A stretch of 64,000 bases of DNA, from NCBI GenBank assembly GCA_015484845.1, contig WFUT01000020.1, forward strand, positions 1 through 64,000, given 5' to 3'. The notes beneath the pieces are model-generated. The model searched no databases, was not told the DNA's origin, and worked only from the letters and a program-made list of their open reading frames with translations. How positions within the stretch are numbered: position 1 is the first letter of the stretch; each line of letters begins with the position of its first letter. The stretch is from Desulfobulbaceae bacterium (GTDB lineage Bacteria > Desulfobacterota > Desulfobulbia > Desulfobulbales > Desulfobulbaceae). The position numbers and the translations under genes are program-made. Shown here piece by piece: positions 36,643 to 51,673 of the stretch.

Positions 36643-37848
36643 TTAATTGGCCTTTTTCCTCAGGTAGGCCGGCTCGTCGTAGTCATCCTGCTCATGGTCG
36701 TCAAAGATCGGCTTGGGCATGGGCCGCAGGCCGGCGGGCGCCGGGTTGGGCTTGGCCATGCTCACCGGCCTGCTCTCCGGCTGCGGCGGCTCCTCGGCCA
36801 GCTTGCTGGAAAGCGACGGACCGCCCTCTTCCCTGCTCGCCGGGGTCGAGTGCACCATGTCGATCTGGGAGATGGTCTCGGACTCCTCGATGCTGGAGAT
36901 GCCGGTGGCGATCACGGTCACCCGCAGCTCGTCGCCCAGGGACTCGTCGAACAGGGCGCCGATGATGATATTGGCGTCGTCGTGGGCCTTGTCCTGGATC
37001 AGGGCCGAGGCCTCCATGAACTCGGCCATGGTCAGGGTCTCCTGGGCCGCGGAGATATTGATCAGGATACCGCGGGCGCCGTCGATGCCCACGTCCTCCA
37101 GGAGCTGGTTGTCGATGGCGCGCTTGGCCGCCTCGCTGGCCCGGTTCTCGCCCGATGCCGAGCCGGTGCCCATGATGGCCGGTCCCACCTCCTTCATGAC
37201 GGTCTTGAGGTCGGCAAAGTCGACATTGATGTGGCCGGGCAGGTTGATCAGGTCGGTGATGCCCTTGACCGCCTGCAGCAGCACGTGGTCCACCATCTTC
37301 ATCATGTCGACCAGGGTGGAGTTCTTCTGCATCAGGCTCAGCAGCCGGTCGTTGGGCACGGTGATGATGGTGTCGGCGTATTCCTTGAGTTTCTCCCAGC
37401 CCTCCTCGGCGTTGCGCATCCGCCGCTTGGCCTCGAAATAAAAGGGCTTGGTGACAACGGCCACGGTGAGCGCGCCCGACTCCTTGCTCAGCTTGGCGAT
37501 GATCGGTGCCGCGCCCGTGCCGGTGCCGCCGCCGAGGCCGGCGGTGATAAACACCATGTCAGCGCCCTTGAGCGCGTTCTTCAGGTCATCGTAGCTCTCC
37601 AGGGCGGATTCGCGGCCCATCTGCGGGTCCGCGCCGGCGCCCATGCCCTTGGTGATACCGGGCCCGAGCTGCAGACGAATGTCGGCGCGAGACTTGTCCA
37701 GGGCCTGCAGGTCGGTATTGGCGACAATGAACTCGACCCCGGAAAGCCGGTTCTCCACCATGGTATTGATGGCATTGCCACCGCCACCACCAACGCCGAT
37801 AACCTTGATAACAGCTACAGATTCTTCTTCCGCCATTCTAAACGGCAT
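36643..37848 (-). CDS. ftsZ: Cell division protein FtsZ
   Basis: '[16 protein letters not shown]', '[13 protein letters not shown]' tubulin signature, C-terminal conserved peptide 'EPAYLRKK'. Confidence 0.98.
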
Positions 37849-37942: not shown

Positions 37943-39175
37943 TCAGACAATATTGCGCACCCAGTTCCGCAACTTGTTCACCACGCTGCCCCGTTCCCGG
38001 CGGGGACGGCCGCTGTTCCGGCTGCCATAGAGGACCAGGCCCACGGCGGTGGTACAGCGGGGCGACTGCACGTCCTCGACCCGGCCGGAGATGCCCTGCG
38101 GGTAGGCGATGCGCACCGGCATGTCAAACACCTGCTCGGCCATCTCGACGATATTGGCCAGCAGGGCCGTGCCGCCGGTGATGACCACGCCGGCATTGAT
38201 CCGGTTGCGATAGCCGGAGGCACAGATGTTCTGGTTGACCAGTTGCAGGATCTCTTCCATCCTGGCCTCGAGGATCTCCACCATCACCCGCTGCGAGACC
38301 TTGCGCGGCTTGCGGTCGCCCACCGTGGGCACCTCGATGATGTGGTTCTCCCGGACCATGGAGGAGAGCGCGCCGCCGTACATGTACTTGAGTTCCTCGG
38401 CCTCCTGCAGCGGGGTGCGCAGGCCCACCGACAGGTCGCTGGTCAGGTTGTTGCCACCCAGGGCCAGCTCCCAGGTATGCTTGATGGTCCCGTTGCAGAA
38501 GACGGCCAGGTCCGTGGTGCCGCCGCCGATATCGAGCAGGAGCACGCCCAGCTCCATCTCGTCGCGTCCGAGCACGCAATGGGAGGAGGCCACCGACTCG
38601 AGCACGATCTCGGACACGGCCAGGCCGGCCCGGTTACAGCTGGTGACCAGGTTGTGCAGGGCGGTGTTGTCGGCGGTCACGATGTGGACGTTGGTCACCA
38701 GGCGGACCCCGGCCATGCCCAGCGGGTTCTGGATGCCGGTATGGTCATCCACCATGTACTCCTGGGGGAGCACGTGGATGATCTGCTGGTTATCGGAGAT
38801 CTTGACCGTCTGCGCGGCCTGGATCACGGCCTCGATATCCTTTTCCTTGATCTCCTGGTTGTTGATCGCGATGATGCCCGGCGAATTGAACCCCTTGATA
38901 TGGTTGCCGGCAATGCCCACGTAGACCGTCTCGATATCGCATCCGGCCATGTCGGACGCGTCATCCACTGCCTGGCGGATGGCCCGGACCGTGGCCTCGA
39001 TGTTGACCACCACCCCCTTTTTCATGCCCGAGGAGGCAGCGGTGCCCACGCCGATGATATCGACCCGGTCGTCGAAGACCTCGCCGATGACCACGCAGAT
39101 CTTGGTGGTGCCGATATCAAGCCCGGCGACCAGTTCGCCGGGTTCCTGAAACTCCTTTTCTTCCATTCTTCTCAC
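37943..39175 (-). CDS. ftsA: Cell division protein FtsA
   Basis: 'LVAGLDIGTTKICVVIGE', 'LLLDIGGGTTDLAVFCNG', 'GVVITGGTALL' actin-like motifs; adjacent to ftsZ. Confidence 0.98.
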   Translation of the reverse strand: MRRMEEKEFQEPGELVAGLDIGTTKICVVIGEVFDDRVDIIGVGTAASSGMKKGVVVNIEATVRAIRQAVDDASDMAGCDIETVYVGIAGNHIKGFNSPGIIAINNQEIKEKDIEAVIQAAQTVKISDNQQIIHVLPQEYMVDDHTGIQNPLGMAGVRLVTNVHIVTADNTALHNLVTSCNRAGLAVSEIVLESVASSHCVLGRDEMELGVLLLDIGGGTTDLAVFCNGTIKHTWELALGGNNLTSDLSVGLRTPLQEAEELKYMYGGALSSMVRENHIIEVPTVGDRKPRKVSQRVMVEILEARMEEILQLVNQNICASGYRNRINAGVVITGGTALLANIVEMAEQVFDMPVRIAYPQGISGRVEDVQSPRCTTAVGLVLYGSRNSGRPRRERGSVVNKLRNWVRNIV

Positions 39176-39237: not shown

Positions 39238-40146
39238 TTACGGCGCGACCCTTGCCACCAGGACCCTGTTTTCCATGTAATCCATGTCGATCTCCCTTAT
39301 GCCGTCGACCCTGTCCCGACGGTAGAGCCGCTCGAGAATCCGCACCAGCCGGTAGTACTTCTTCCTGATCCTCTCCCGGCCGAAGTAGATGGGAAAGGGC
39401 CGGTCCACCAAGTAGAGAACAAGGCCCCGGTCCCGGCTGACATGGATCTCGGAGATCGCCTGTACCGGGACAATGGGCTTGCCGCGGGTCGCCAGCAGGA
39501 GCAGGCCGAGGGCCTCGCGCAGCGGCGTGTCTTCGGCAATCCGGCCCTTTGCCGGTACCTCGAAATCTGACGACAGCACCGGGTAGTCCATGTCCTGTCC
39601 GGGGCGGACCCGGGCAAAGATCTCGCCATGCCGGTCGACATAGAACAGGCCGCCGCCATGCCGGAGTATGGCCAGCGGCCGGTACTCCTGCACCTGGACC
39701 AGGACCGTGGAGGGCCACTGCCGCTCCACCCGCGCCGACCTGATCCAGGGATTGGCCCGGATGCGCCGGCCGGCAAGGTCCGTGTCCAGGGTCAGCAGGC
39801 TCATCCCCTGTTCCAGGCCGGCCGCATCGAGGATCGCACCGGTGCGGACCACGCGGTTGCCCTGGACCGTGACCCCGGTCAGGCGGAAGATCTCGGAGCG
39901 GGCCAGCATCCGCCAGCCGCTCCATGCCGCGGCCCCGGCCAGGACCGCCAGGAAGAGGAAAACCACCATGCTGCGGGAGATCCGGCGAAAGAACCATTCC
40001 CGCTGCACGTGGGCCACCGTGGCCTGGCGTGGAGGCGGCGCAGGCCGGCGGCGGGCGGCGAGGCGGCCGCGCAGGCCGGCGGCCAGGCGTCCGAACAGCC
40101 CCCTGCGGTCGGAACCGCCACTGTATCTGGACCTGTATTGCGGCAT
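39238..40146 (-). CDS. ftsQ: Cell division protein FtsQ
   Basis: Single TM, POTRA-like 'IFRLTGVTVQGNRVVRTGAILDAAGLEQG', dcw position. Confidence 0.88.
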   Translation of the reverse strand: MPQYRSRYSGGSDRRGLFGRLAAGLRGRLAARRRPAPPPRQATVAHVQREWFFRRISRSMVVFLFLAVLAGAAAWSGWRMLARSEIFRLTGVTVQGNRVVRTGAILDAAGLEQGMSLLTLDTDLAGRRIRANPWIRSARVERQWPSTVLVQVQEYRPLAILRHGGGLFYVDRHGEIFARVRPGQDMDYPVLSSDFEVPAKGRIAEDTPLREALGLLLLATRGKPIVPVQAISEIHVSRDRGLVLYLVDRPFPIYFGRERIRKKYYRLVRILERLYRRDRVDGIREIDMDYMENRVLVARVAP

Positions 40147-42622: not shown

Positions 42623-43720
42623 TCAGCGGCGCCGGCCGCGGGCCGCCACCATCTCCAGGCATTCGTCGATGATCCGCTCCGTGGCCCCGGGCCGCCCCAG
42701 GGCCTTCATCCTGGCGCCCATACCCTGAAGATTCTGATTATTATACAGGAGAGTGGTTATCTCTTCAGCCAGAATATTTCCATTGAGTAAAGATTCCCGC
42801 AACAGGACCGCGCCGCCGCCCTCCACGTAGAAGCGGGCATTGCGCTCCTGGTGGTTGTCGGCGGCATGGGGATAGGGAATCAGCAGGGCCGGCAGTCCCA
42901 TGACCGCCAGCTCGGCCAGGGTGGTGGCCCCGGCCCTGGAGACCACCAGGTCGGCCTGCTGGTAGATCGCGGCCATGTCCCTGAAAAAATCACCGGTCTC
43001 CGCCGCCACCCCCATCTCCCTGTATGCCTGCCTGACCTCCTCCAGGTCACGGCTGCCGGTCTGGTGGATGACGCGAAAGGCGCCACCGTCCTCCCGCATC
43101 CGTGCCACGGCGGCCGTCACCAGGGTATTGACCCGGTGCGCCCCCTGGCTGCCGCCCAGGACCAGCAGGGTCGGCGGCCGGTCCGCCGGCCGGGGGAGCC
43201 GCTGCGCTGCCGCGGCCAGGATCTCCCCGCGGACCGGGTTGCCGGTCATCCTGGTGCGCGCCGCCGGGAAAGGCGGCGTGCAGGGCAGGGAGATGAAGAT
43301 CCGGTCCGCGAGCCGGCCGGCCAGCCGGTTGGCCAGGCCGGGCACCGAGTTCTGCTCGTGGATGCAGACCGGGATTTTCTGCAGCTTTGCCGCGAGCAGC
43401 ACCGGCCCGGTGACGTAACCGCCGACCCCGATGACCAGCTCCGGCCGGAAGCGGGCCAGGATGCGCATTGCCTGGCCAACGGCCAGGGGCAGCAGGCCCA
43501 CGGCGCGCAGCCGGGAGAGGATCCCCTTGCCCTTGAGGCCGGCGCTCCGGATGGTAGCCTGGTCAAAACCAAGCCCCTGCAGGCCGATCCGGTCCACCTG
43601 CCGGCTGGTGCCGATGAACAGGATCTCGGTTGCCGGCACCCTCTCCCGCATACCGCATGCAACCGCGATGCCGGGAAAGAGGTGGCCGCCGGTACCGCCG
43701 CCGGTGACGATCAGGCGCAC
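42623..43720 (-). CDS. murG: UDP-GlcNAc:undecaprenyl-PP-MurNAc-pentapeptide GlcNAc transferase MurG
   Basis: '[19 protein letters not shown]', '[11 protein letters not shown]', '[14 protein letters not shown]'. Confidence 0.97.
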
Positions 43721-43932
43721 AGGACCCCCACCAGCATGGGACAGGAATCGCTGGCCACGGCGGAGCGGATCATCTGCTGTTTCCTGATGAACTCGTCCAG
43801 GGCCGCCATGGCCTCGGAAAAGCAGTCCGGGCAGTAGCCGTGCGTCACCCGCTCGTCCGCGGGCAGCGCATTGGTCATGGACCAGTGGTCACCATCCTGT
43901 ACCCGCTGGCAGACACAACATACCTTGGTCAT
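43711..43932 (-). CDS. Small Cys-rich (zinc-ribbon-like) protein occupying the usual ftsW position
   Basis: 73 aa 'MTKVCCVCQRVQDGDHWSMTNALPADERVTHGYCPDCFSEAM...'; overlaps the murG start and adjoins the murD stop. Confidence 0.65.
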   Translation of the reverse strand: MTKVCCVCQRVQDGDHWSMTNALPADERVTHGYCPDCFSEAMAALDEFIRKQQMIRSAVASDSCPMLVGVLCA

Positions 43933-45331
43933 GGTCCTTCCTCGCAACCGGCCTCCCCGGCCGCCGCACTCCCCGGCACGGCCCCGGCAGCCAGCATCTC
44001 CCGCGCAAGCCGCGTAAAGACCCGGCCCCGCTGTTCGTAACTGTCAAACATGTCAAAACTGGCACATCCCGGGGCCAAGAGGACCGTGTCCCCGGCCCTG
44101 GCCGCGGCCGCGGCCGAGCGCACGGCCCCTGCCATGTCACCGGCCCGGATCACCGGCGCCAGGTCACCCAACTGGTCAGCGATGATCCCGGCCGCCTCGC
44201 CGATGAGGACCAGGGCCCGGACCCGGTCGCGGACCAGGGGCCGCACAACGGAAAAATCGCCGCCCTTGTCCCGGCCGCCGGCGATCAGGACCACGGGGGA
44301 ATCGCAGCTTGCCAGGGCCGCGGCCATGGCGCCCACGTTGGTGGCCTTGGAGTCATTGATCCACCTGATTCCGTCCCGGCTCCCGACCAGGCTCATCCTG
44401 TGCTCCGGGGGCCTGAAACCACGGAGCCCGCGGCCGATGGCATCGGCGCCGCAGCCCGCTGCCCGCGCCGCCAGGATGGCGGCGGCGGCGTTGAGCCGGT
44501 TGACGGCGCTGTCCAGGCGGCTGCCGGCCAGGTCAAAGGAGAGCGTCTTCCCCTGTCCCGGCACCAGGACCCGGCTGCCGCTGACCACCGCGTCGCCGCC
44601 CGCGGCCCGGCCAAAGGTGCGCCGCGCGGCCCGGCCCGTGTCAGCGGCCAGGGCCAGGGCATCGTCGGCGCCGAGGATGGCGACATCATCCTCCTGCTGG
44701 CCGGCAAAGATGCGGTACTTGGCCGCCGCGTACCGCTCCATGCTGCCGTGCCGGTCGAGATGATCGGGCGTGATGTTGAGCAGCAGCCCGATATTGGCCC
44801 GGAAATCGCCGGCCAGCTCGAGCTGGAAGCTGGACAGCTCCAGGACCACGAAGTCCGCCCGGCCGGGGCCGGCAAAAAATCGAGCAGCGGCGTGCCGATA
44901 TTGCCGCCGACAAAGACCCTAAAGCCGGCTGTCTCCAGGAGTTCGCCGATCAGGCCGGTGACCGTGGTCTTGCCGTTGGACCCGGTCACCGCGATCACCG
45001 GCGCCGGGAACCTGCCGGCCGCCAGGGCCAGCTCGCCCAGGACCGGGATTCGCCGCTGCCGGGCCCGGGCCAGGATATCGAGATCCAGGGGAACGCCGGG
45101 ACCGGCCACCACCAGGTCGGCGCCGGCCAGGTACCGCCCGCTGTGGCCGCCGGTCTCCAGGCGAACGTCCATGGTCTCGACCAGTTCCAGCTCCCCGGCT
45201 GTCAGCCTGTCCATGGGCCGGTGCTCGGAGACCGCCACCTCCAGGCCCTGGCCGCGCAGGAAGCGGACCACCGACCGTCCCGATACCCCCAGGCCCAGGA
45301 CAAGGGCCTTCATTCCCGCCTGCAGCCGCAT
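43929..45331 (-). pseudogene. murD: UDP-N-acetylmuramoylalanine--D-glutamate ligase MurD, reading frame broken by an apparent 1-nt deletion (likely sequencing indel or slippage site)
   Basis: N-terminal half (44393..45331 ORF) 'KALVLGLGVSGRSVVRFL...VTGSNGKTTVTGLIGELLE' continues in the 43929..44849 frame as 'VLELSSFQLELA...ITPDHLDRHGSMERY...WINDSKATNVGAM'. Switch at the T6 run (A6 on +, 44874-44879). Confidence 0.85.
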
Positions 45332-49432: not shown

Positions 49433-51277
49433 TCACTTGCTGTTCGAGATGGTCGGTTCCAGGGTAAGTACACAGTCTGTCACGTCGTGGAGCGGCGTTC
49501 CCGCCGCCGGTTTCTGGGCTATGATCCGTCCTGAACCCCTGATGGTCAGCCTGAAGGGCTGCCGGCCGAGGCGCTGCAGCCCCTGCCGCAGGCTGAGGCC
49601 GATCACATCGGGCATCAGGGCTCCCTGTTCCGTGGTGGTGCCCGGCTGTTCCTGGTAGTCTATACGGCGGCTGATCAGGAACTGGCGGAAATTCTCCTGG
49701 TTCCTGCCGCCGGGGGACCCGGTTGCCGACGGCCGCGCCTGCATGCGGTACAGCCTGGGCAGCAGTTCCCTGCCCAGGGCGGCCAGGGACGGGCTCCGGA
49801 GCCTGCGCCGGGACAGCGGATCCAGGCCGTCACGTTCCACCACCATCAGCAGCAGCAGGCGGGGGGAACCGGCCGGAATCACGCCCACCATGGCCTCCTG
49901 CCGCACGTAGCGGCTGAAGACCCCTTCCCGCACCACCTTGTTGACCGTGCCGGTGAAAATCCTGGCCGCATCCCTCTTCCCGCGCCCGGCCAGGAGCAGG
50001 GACCGGCGCATCAGGATACCCATGGCCGGCTCCAGGACCAGCTCCCGCCTTGTTGCGTCCCGACGGCGGCCGTAGCGCCGGGCCGTGGCATGATCGTAGA
50101 GGGAACCGAGCAGCCAGGGGGCGATATGCCAGCCACCGTTGACCAGGCACGCCAGGCCGACGGCCAGCTGCATGCCGTCAACCCCTCCCCTGTTCCCGTC
50201 CGGGGCCGGGGTGCCGCTCCTGCCGCCGGTGACGAGCAGGTCCCTGCCCACGGGCCGGAACATGCCGACCAGCCGGGCGAGGTCACTGATGCCGGTGGCG
50301 CTGATGCCGAAATCCGGCGCGGCCACGGTCTCGGGCAAAAGATCCATGCCCCTGCCGCCGTCCCGCAGCACCGCCGCCGCCCGCACCAGCAGGCCGTGGA
50401 CCAGGTCAAGGTCCAGCCGGTCCGCGAACAGCCGGTTGCGGCGGCTCTCCCGGTCGGCCTGCCAGAAATAGTTGGGATTGAAGGCCGGCTGGCTGGCCAT
50501 GGCCAGGATTCTGCCGTCGGCCGGATCGAGCAGCAGGGCCATGCCGCGGCGCGATGACCGGCTCTTCAGGTACCGGCGCAGCCGCTGCTCGACCAGTTTT
50601 TCCATGTCCAGGTCAACGGTCAGGACCAGGTCGGTGCTGGTTCTGCCCAGGACCTGGTGGCCGGCAAAATCGATCTCCGGGACATCACTGCTCCGGAACT
50701 CGCCGGGTTCGAGCACGATATCATAGCGTCCCTCGACCCCGGCCAGCCCCACGCCGTCGCTGGTAAACCCGAGCAGGTGCGCGGCCACGGTATGGGCCGG
50801 GTAGAAGCGCTCCTCCCGGGGCCGCAGGTAGAGACCGGCCATGTGCAACCGGGCAACGGCCCTGGCCTGGCCCTCATCCAGGTCGTCGGCCACCTCGATG
50901 ACCTGCTGCGGCTTTTTCAGCAGGCCGAGCAGTTTTTCCCTGTCCTCTCCCAGGATGCCGGCCAGGGCGCGGGCGGTCTCTTCGCGACCACCCAGCTCCA
51001 CCGGGTGCACGGACAGGGTGAAGAGCCGGTAGGAGACCGCCATCTCGTTGAGCCGGCGGTCGTACACGGTTCCTCTTAAAACAGGTTCAGCGGACGTGTC
51101 GTCCGCTGAAGTTCCGGAAATCCTGCCGGCAGCAAGATCAAATATCCTGCCGATATCCTGGAGGGAGAGGGGTAATCTATACAGGATACCGCCACCTGCT
51201 GCCAGCAGAATCACCAGCAAACCGAGAAGGTAGAGACGCCGTTTTCTCCGTTTTCTTATTCGCTCCGATCTGATCAT
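49433..51277 (-). CDS. ftsI: FtsI/PBP2x-type division protein with PASTA domain; transpeptidase motifs appear degenerate
   Basis: dcw position, N-terminal TM, dimerization region 'RGTVYDRRLNEMAVS', 'GVGLAGVEGRYD', 'LVLTVDLDMEKLVEQRL', 'GMALLLDPADGRILAMASQPAFNPNYF', PASTA 'MPDVIGLSLRQGLQRLG'. SxxK and KTG motifs not present at the expected positions. Confidence 0.88.
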   Translation of the reverse strand: MIRSERIRKRRKRRLYLLGLLVILLAAGGGILYRLPLSLQDIGRIFDLAAGRISGTSADDTSAEPVLRGTVYDRRLNEMAVSYRLFTLSVHPVELGGREETARALAGILGEDREKLLGLLKKPQQVIEVADDLDEGQARAVARLHMAGLYLRPREERFYPAHTVAAHLLGFTSDGVGLAGVEGRYDIVLEPGEFRSSDVPEIDFAGHQVLGRTSTDLVLTVDLDMEKLVEQRLRRYLKSRSSRRGMALLLDPADGRILAMASQPAFNPNYFWQADRESRRNRLFADRLDLDLVHGLLVRAAAVLRDGGRGMDLLPETVAAPDFGISATGISDLARLVGMFRPVGRDLLVTGGRSGTPAPDGNRGGVDGMQLAVGLACLVNGGWHIAPWLLGSLYDHATARRYGRRRDATRRELVLEPAMGILMRRSLLLAGRGKRDAARIFTGTVNKVVREGVFSRYVRQEAMVGVIPAGSPRLLLLMVVERDGLDPLSRRRLRSPSLAALGRELLPRLYRMQARPSATGSPGGRNQENFRQFLISRRIDYQEQPGTTTEQGALMPDVIGLSLRQGLQRLGRQPFRLTIRGSGRIIAQKPAAGTPLHDVTDCVLTLEPTISNSK

Positions 51278-51304: not shown

Positions 51305-51673
51305 TCAGAAGAAACGATGCACCTGTCCCCTGGTCGGTTCCAGCAGGCCGAACTTCACCGCCGCCACCGCCTCCACCCGCTGCCGGGAGGCCAGTTTGGC
51401 ACGGGTGGCCAGGAGATCGACGTGGCTGGATCCCAGCTCGGAACGGACCTTTTCCAGCTGGTCCAGCTGCTCCGAGACAGTGGCGATCCGCCACTGCATG
51501 AACTGGCCGGCGGCCAGGACCACCACCAGGATCGCCAGCAGCCACAGCCCCATGCGCTGGACGAGTTCCGCGGACCAGGCACGGCCGCTGCCCCGGGCGA
51601 CCCGCTGCCGGACGCCGACCGGTGCCGTCTGCGGGCGATAGCTCCGTACGTTCATGTTGGTCATCATGGTCAT
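51305..51673 (-). CDS. ftsL: FtsL-like cell division protein
   Basis: Short protein with one TM and a coiled coil between rsmH and ftsI. Confidence 0.7.
   Translation of the reverse strand: MTMMTNMNVRSYRPQTAPVGVRQRVARGSGRAWSAELVQRMGLWLLAILVVVLAAGQFMQWRIATVSEQLDQLEKVRSELGSSHVDLLATRAKLASRQRVEAVAAVKFGLLEPTRGQVHRFF

Follow-up and report, generated by a model that had tools for sequence, protein, structure and literature searches.

Loss of the FtsI active site goes together with loss of FtsW in the Desulfobulbales and elsewhere in their phylum

In nearly all walled bacteria, the FtsW-FtsI pair is considered to be the synthase of the septal wall. In Pseudomonas aeruginosa, FtsI contacts FtsL through its pedestal and FtsW through its transmembrane helix (PMC7614612). 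Catalytically dead PBP2B can sustain division in Bacillus subtilis, given another transpeptidase (PMC5656894). Clostridioides difficile divides without FtsW/FtsI by means of a class A penicillin-binding protein (PBP) (PMC10693644), and a class B PBP that need not be catalytically active assists its septation (PMC12539705). A survey of four Desulfobulbaceae genomes, from two cable bacteria and two Desulfobulbus species, reports ftsW to be missing, as it is here, together with ftsN and zipA (PMC7873302); in the available text of that survey, FtsI is taken as present, septal synthesis via FtsI activity is discussed, and the lost FtsI active site goes unmentioned. The absence of ftsW from four Desulfobulbaceae is therefore known, whereas a search of the open-licence literature, to the extent of its available text, turned up neither the dead FtsI nor the linked loss.

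The window, that is, the whole stretch of DNA analysed here, comprises 64,000 nucleotides from a member of the Desulfobulbaceae, the family of the cable bacteria. Its FtsI homologue shares with FtsI/PBP3 the slot in the dcw cluster, the membrane anchor, the pedestal, the transpeptidase-like fold and the PASTA domain, but it has no SxxK, SxN or KTG motif and no FtsW partner in the genome. The S309A variant of B. subtilis PBP2B is likewise a dead division class B PBP that supports assembly; that variant, however, is a laboratory mutant in a cell with FtsW (PMC5656894), whereas the state described here is natural, order-wide and FtsW-less. The C. difficile divisome also has no canonical FtsW/FtsI pair and uses a class B PBP without catalysis. 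There, however, the SEDS/class B pair of the dcw cluster has been turned over to sporulation, division can do without FtsQ, FtsL and FtsB, and, unlike in the window's order, no dead FtsI occupies the dcw slot (PMC10693644, PMC12539705).

The cluster in the window runs mraZ, rsmH, ftsL, ftsI, a fused murE-murF, mraY, murD, murG, murC, murB, ftsQ, ftsA and ftsZ (Table 1), with rsmH, murC and murB named from sequence, without a profile scan. Both ftsL and ftsQ are thus retained, and the murD-murG interval of the window contains no ftsW. The gap at the site expected for ftsW (43721-43928, minus strand) holds a short frame with paired CxxC motifs that is zinc-ribbon-like. A frameshift near 44850 splits murD into two overlapping frames; because murD should be an essential gene, this probably reflects an error in the assembly. 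The MurE-MurF fusion is shared by the two Desulfogranum type strains and by the FtsW-less families f66 and f76, and does not occur in the FtsW-less families f39, f40 and f65.

Table 1. Features of the FtsI homologue and its dcw neighbours, in window coordinates
Feature	Coordinates	Strand	Basis or remark
FtsI homologue without active-site motif	49433..51277	-	614 aa
N-terminal transmembrane segment, residues 14-36	51170..51238	-	read from sequence; helix in model
Pedestal / dimerisation domain, residues 60-215	50633..51100	-	PF03717; with PASTA, the most conserved part
Transpeptidase-like domain, residues 216-514	49736..50632	-	fold partly retained, active site gone
SxxK position, reads L-V-H-G, residues 292-295	50393..50404	-	alignment
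KTG position, reads IFTGTVNK, residues 440-447	49937..49960	-	alignment and literal scan
C-terminal PASTA domain, residues 549-614	49436..49633	-	PF03793; conservation
FtsL, expected partner of the FtsI pedestal	51305..51673	-	TIGR02209, weak match under cut-off; position
Fused MurE-MurF, 1018 aa	46417..49473	-	
murD, frameshifted in assembly; murG follows without ftsW in between	43929..45331	-	
murG	42623..43720	-	
FtsQ	39238..40146	-	
FtsA	37943..39175	-	
FtsZ	36643..37848	-	

The reading frame in the FtsI slot is unbroken from 49433 to 51277 on the minus strand. The original prediction had placed an FtsI homologue here and was right in this, although it did not state the strand. The Pfam models PBP_dimer and PASTA match the protein, whereas the Transpeptidase model matches with only the first 39 of its 299 positions, slightly under the cut-off. 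When the protein is aligned with 112 intact FtsIs, the SxxK column reads L292-V-H-G295, with leucine for serine and glycine for lysine, the stretch that bears SxN is deleted, and the KTG column reads F-TG within IFTGT, with phenylalanine for lysine. The pedestal sequence RGTVYDR, the NPNYF strand region and the PASTA domain are kept. The alignment to the FtsI family thus bears out what had been proposed: that the dimerization region, an RGxVYDRR-type motif and PASTA are retained, that the serine and lysine of SxxK are lost, that the SxN region is shortened and holds no SSN-like motif, and that KTGT has become IFTGT. In a literal scan of the whole protein, S.N and K[TS]G do not occur at all and S..K occurs solely at residue 611, in the C-terminal tail, so the motifs have not simply been displaced, and the presence of intact motifs at shifted positions is ruled out.

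Homology is equally clear at the level of families, as a profile of the 112 intact FtsIs aligns with a profile of 53 members of the window's order over 551 columns (hhalign, probability 100%, E = 4e-88). An AlphaFold model trimmed to residues 60-516 is of middling confidence (pLDDT 65, pTM 0.59), and its best Foldseek match is PBP3 of P. aeruginosa (E 1e-22, probability 1.00, TM about 0.53). The modelling suggested with the original prediction therefore points to a partly retained FtsI fold without its active site. With pedestal, transpeptidase-like region, PASTA and dcw slot in place, and with none of the SxxK, SxN and KTG/KSG motifs of an active class B PBP or D,D-transpeptidase, the protein is confirmed as an FtsI homologue that lacks the whole active site.

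A check of conservation in relatives had also been suggested. The motif loss is present in two congeneric genomes, at 81% and 72% identity, and none of the 53 FtsI homologues read in the order has SxxK; these homologues represent family f1 and 14 other families (15 in all) and include single-contig and type-strain genomes. At the aligned SxN column, S.N is found in 2/53, probably by chance, and the aligned KTG column holds the motif in 0/53. Cultured members of the order include Desulfogranum marinum DSM 2058 and D. mediterraneum DSM 13871. An FtsI homologue is present in 115/115 genomes of a class-wide sample, all belonging to the window's order. With a profile built on intact FtsIs only, scores of 605 bits or more are obtained for intact FtsIs that were not used in training, against no more than 397 for dead FtsIs and no more than 339 for MrdA. 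The best match among 258 genomes of the order reached 287 bits, so no intact FtsI is detectable in these assemblies, many of which are drafts; genome counts such as these include relatives and do not represent independent events. The dead-FtsI state is fixed across the order. In one single-contig genome (G006, C1:2301500-2304400), the FtsI homologue is split by a stop or frameshift into frames of 509 and 176 aa.

FtsW is gone as well. No cognate FtsW is found in the window organism's own genome, a 97%-complete draft, whose sole SEDS gene is RodA, beside MrdA. The same genome yields no second, intact FtsI, and the search for other class B PBPs with intact motifs, also suggested earlier, finds MrdA as the only one. 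Across the order, the SEDS family (PF01098) is represented by one gene per genome with few exceptions: in G008 the gene is broken in two, G019 and G031 each have an additional fragment, 43-51 residues long, where a contig begins, and in four genomes the family has no match. In each of the 21 FtsW-less genomes inspected, the lone SEDS gene is RodA, located directly beside MrdA, and the MrdA motifs are intact.

The two losses are linked beyond the order. Most of the 158 genomes in a phylum-wide sample have two SEDS genes. The 112 FtsIs with intact SxxK, SxN and KTG all lie outside the window's order, and at least two SEDS genes are found in 101 of their genomes; 5 of the other 11 have their one SEDS gene at a distance of about 7 kb from ftsI, which makes it FtsW by position. 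A further ten families have RodA as their only SEDS protein. Their FtsI is dead, with 538-643 aa (f28, f66, f72, f76), or reduced to a stump of 248-457 aa in the FtsI slot before murE (f35, f39, f40, f65, f75), or could not be found (f59). Pfam detects traces of the pedestal in the stumps of f39 and f40 and PASTA in those of f35, f65 and f75, several of them below cut-off. Some stumps consist of a membrane anchor and PASTA only. On a tree of MrdA, the FtsW-less label needs a minimum of 2 changes, against a mean of 13.8 for shuffled labels, in a single-gene tree with open branches that does not separate one FtsW loss from several. Across the phylum, a missing FtsW and a dead FtsI coincide. The original prediction had missed the loss of FtsW, the order-wide extent of the state and its recurrence in other FtsW-less families. 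It is likely that several lineages of the phylum, including the window's whole class, divide without FtsW/FtsI enzymatic activity, and that FtsI serves them as a pure scaffold, shrunk in some families to an anchor with PASTA or to a pedestal remnant.

For the window's own protein, the explanation that we favour, with good though not full confidence, is that a divisome FtsI has turned into a pseudoenzyme and acts as a non-catalytic scaffold. With the active site and FtsW gone, the division wall must be built by other enzymes. FtsW and the FtsI active site would have been given up as a unit, so that other enzymes would provide both polymerisation and cross-linking. The likeliest provider is a class A PBP, with RodA-MrdA acting at sidewall and septum as the alternative. 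The membrane anchor, pedestal and PASTA domain would dock FtsI to FtsL and FtsQ(B) at the Z-ring, where it may recruit or activate septal peptidoglycan synthases without chemistry of its own. In short, docking and activation would be what FtsI was kept for after its chemistry and FtsW were abandoned. We infer that the protein is a divisome component from its synteny with ftsL and its conserved pedestal, and we likewise infer its septal localisation, its binding to FtsL, the activation of a partner and the identity of that partner. The original suggestions of a structural divisome pseudoenzyme, and of another PBP that performs septal cross-linking, are supported by the evidence as a whole; the latter fits the intact MrdA and class A PBPs of the same genome.

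An artefact of frameshift, assembly or alignment can practically be dismissed. A frameshift does exist in the murD of the same assembly, but the FtsI frame is continuous, as first pointed out, the same loss recurs in 53 genomes from the order, single-contig and type-strain genomes among them, which refutes such an artefact, and MrdA reads as intact by the same method. It is also quite improbable that the protein is a decaying relic without function. That the protein has become progressively shorter in other FtsW-less families, down to 248-457 aa, would suit a relic, but dN/dS against the two congeneric genomes (Nei-Gojobori) is 0.30 and 0.33 overall and 0.33-0.35 in the transpeptidase-like region, thus about 0.3 in all domains, which indicates that the homologue is under selection rather than decaying. 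The open frame and its slot, moreover, are retained across 15 families. The pedestal ranks with the best conserved regions of the protein, and invariant residues across the order are found both there (R68, D73, G148, R157, Y159, P160, G170, E182) and in PASTA (M555, P556, G560, S562, R564, G581, G583, Q588, P590); the first strands of the transpeptidase-like domain are conserved order-wide too. A partly retained fold under purifying selection might instead suggest a transpeptidase that works through other residues. This is more improbable still, given that the SxN segment is deleted, that no Ser, Cys, Lys, His or Tyr is conserved order-wide in the transpeptidase-like region, and that region 290-530 offers no conserved candidate for a substitute nucleophile across the order. 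Slot, purifying selection, conserved pedestal and PASTA, and the lack of an alternative nucleophile all make a structural role probable.

The alternative that deserves most weight concerns the supplier of the septal wall. RodA-MrdA, as the last SEDS/class B pair, may make both sidewall and septum, with the dead FtsI as its midcell adaptor, a possibility that we take seriously and yet lean against. All inspected FtsW-less genomes have an intact RodA next to an intact MrdA, and the window organism's genome has no intact class B PBP other than MrdA. However, C. difficile uses RodA-PBP2 for elongation and a class A PBP for the septum (PMC10693644), and no duplication of mrdA or rodA was seen in the order. 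Because of the C. difficile precedent, a class A PBP is our preferred candidate for the replacement, with RodA-MrdA as its main rival.

The class of sulfur-metabolising bacteria to which the Desulfobulbaceae belong may serve as a natural experiment that separates the structural from the catalytic role of FtsI, in which the activities of FtsW and FtsI were lost as a unit. It makes testable what FtsI does beyond its chemistry and which synthases can replace FtsW-FtsI. PBP3-selective beta-lactams are predicted to be without their usual target in these organisms.

If the preferred reading of a scaffold FtsI served by a class A PBP is followed, the window organism's genome offers two such enzymes, one of a standard 629 aa and a giant of 1238 aa with both Transgly and Transpeptidase domains. 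Giants of this kind (1100-1240 aa) occur in nearly all genomes of the order that were searched, and also in the FtsW-bearing families f31, f44, f60 and f79, and are absent from the FtsW-less families outside the order, a distribution that rules the giant out as a universal replacement of FtsW and FtsI. Although the most distinctive of the candidates, it is a candidate septal enzyme within the order, and no general substitute. In the window organism, the giant is encoded on contig C190 (L073:555-4268) and carries a long insert.
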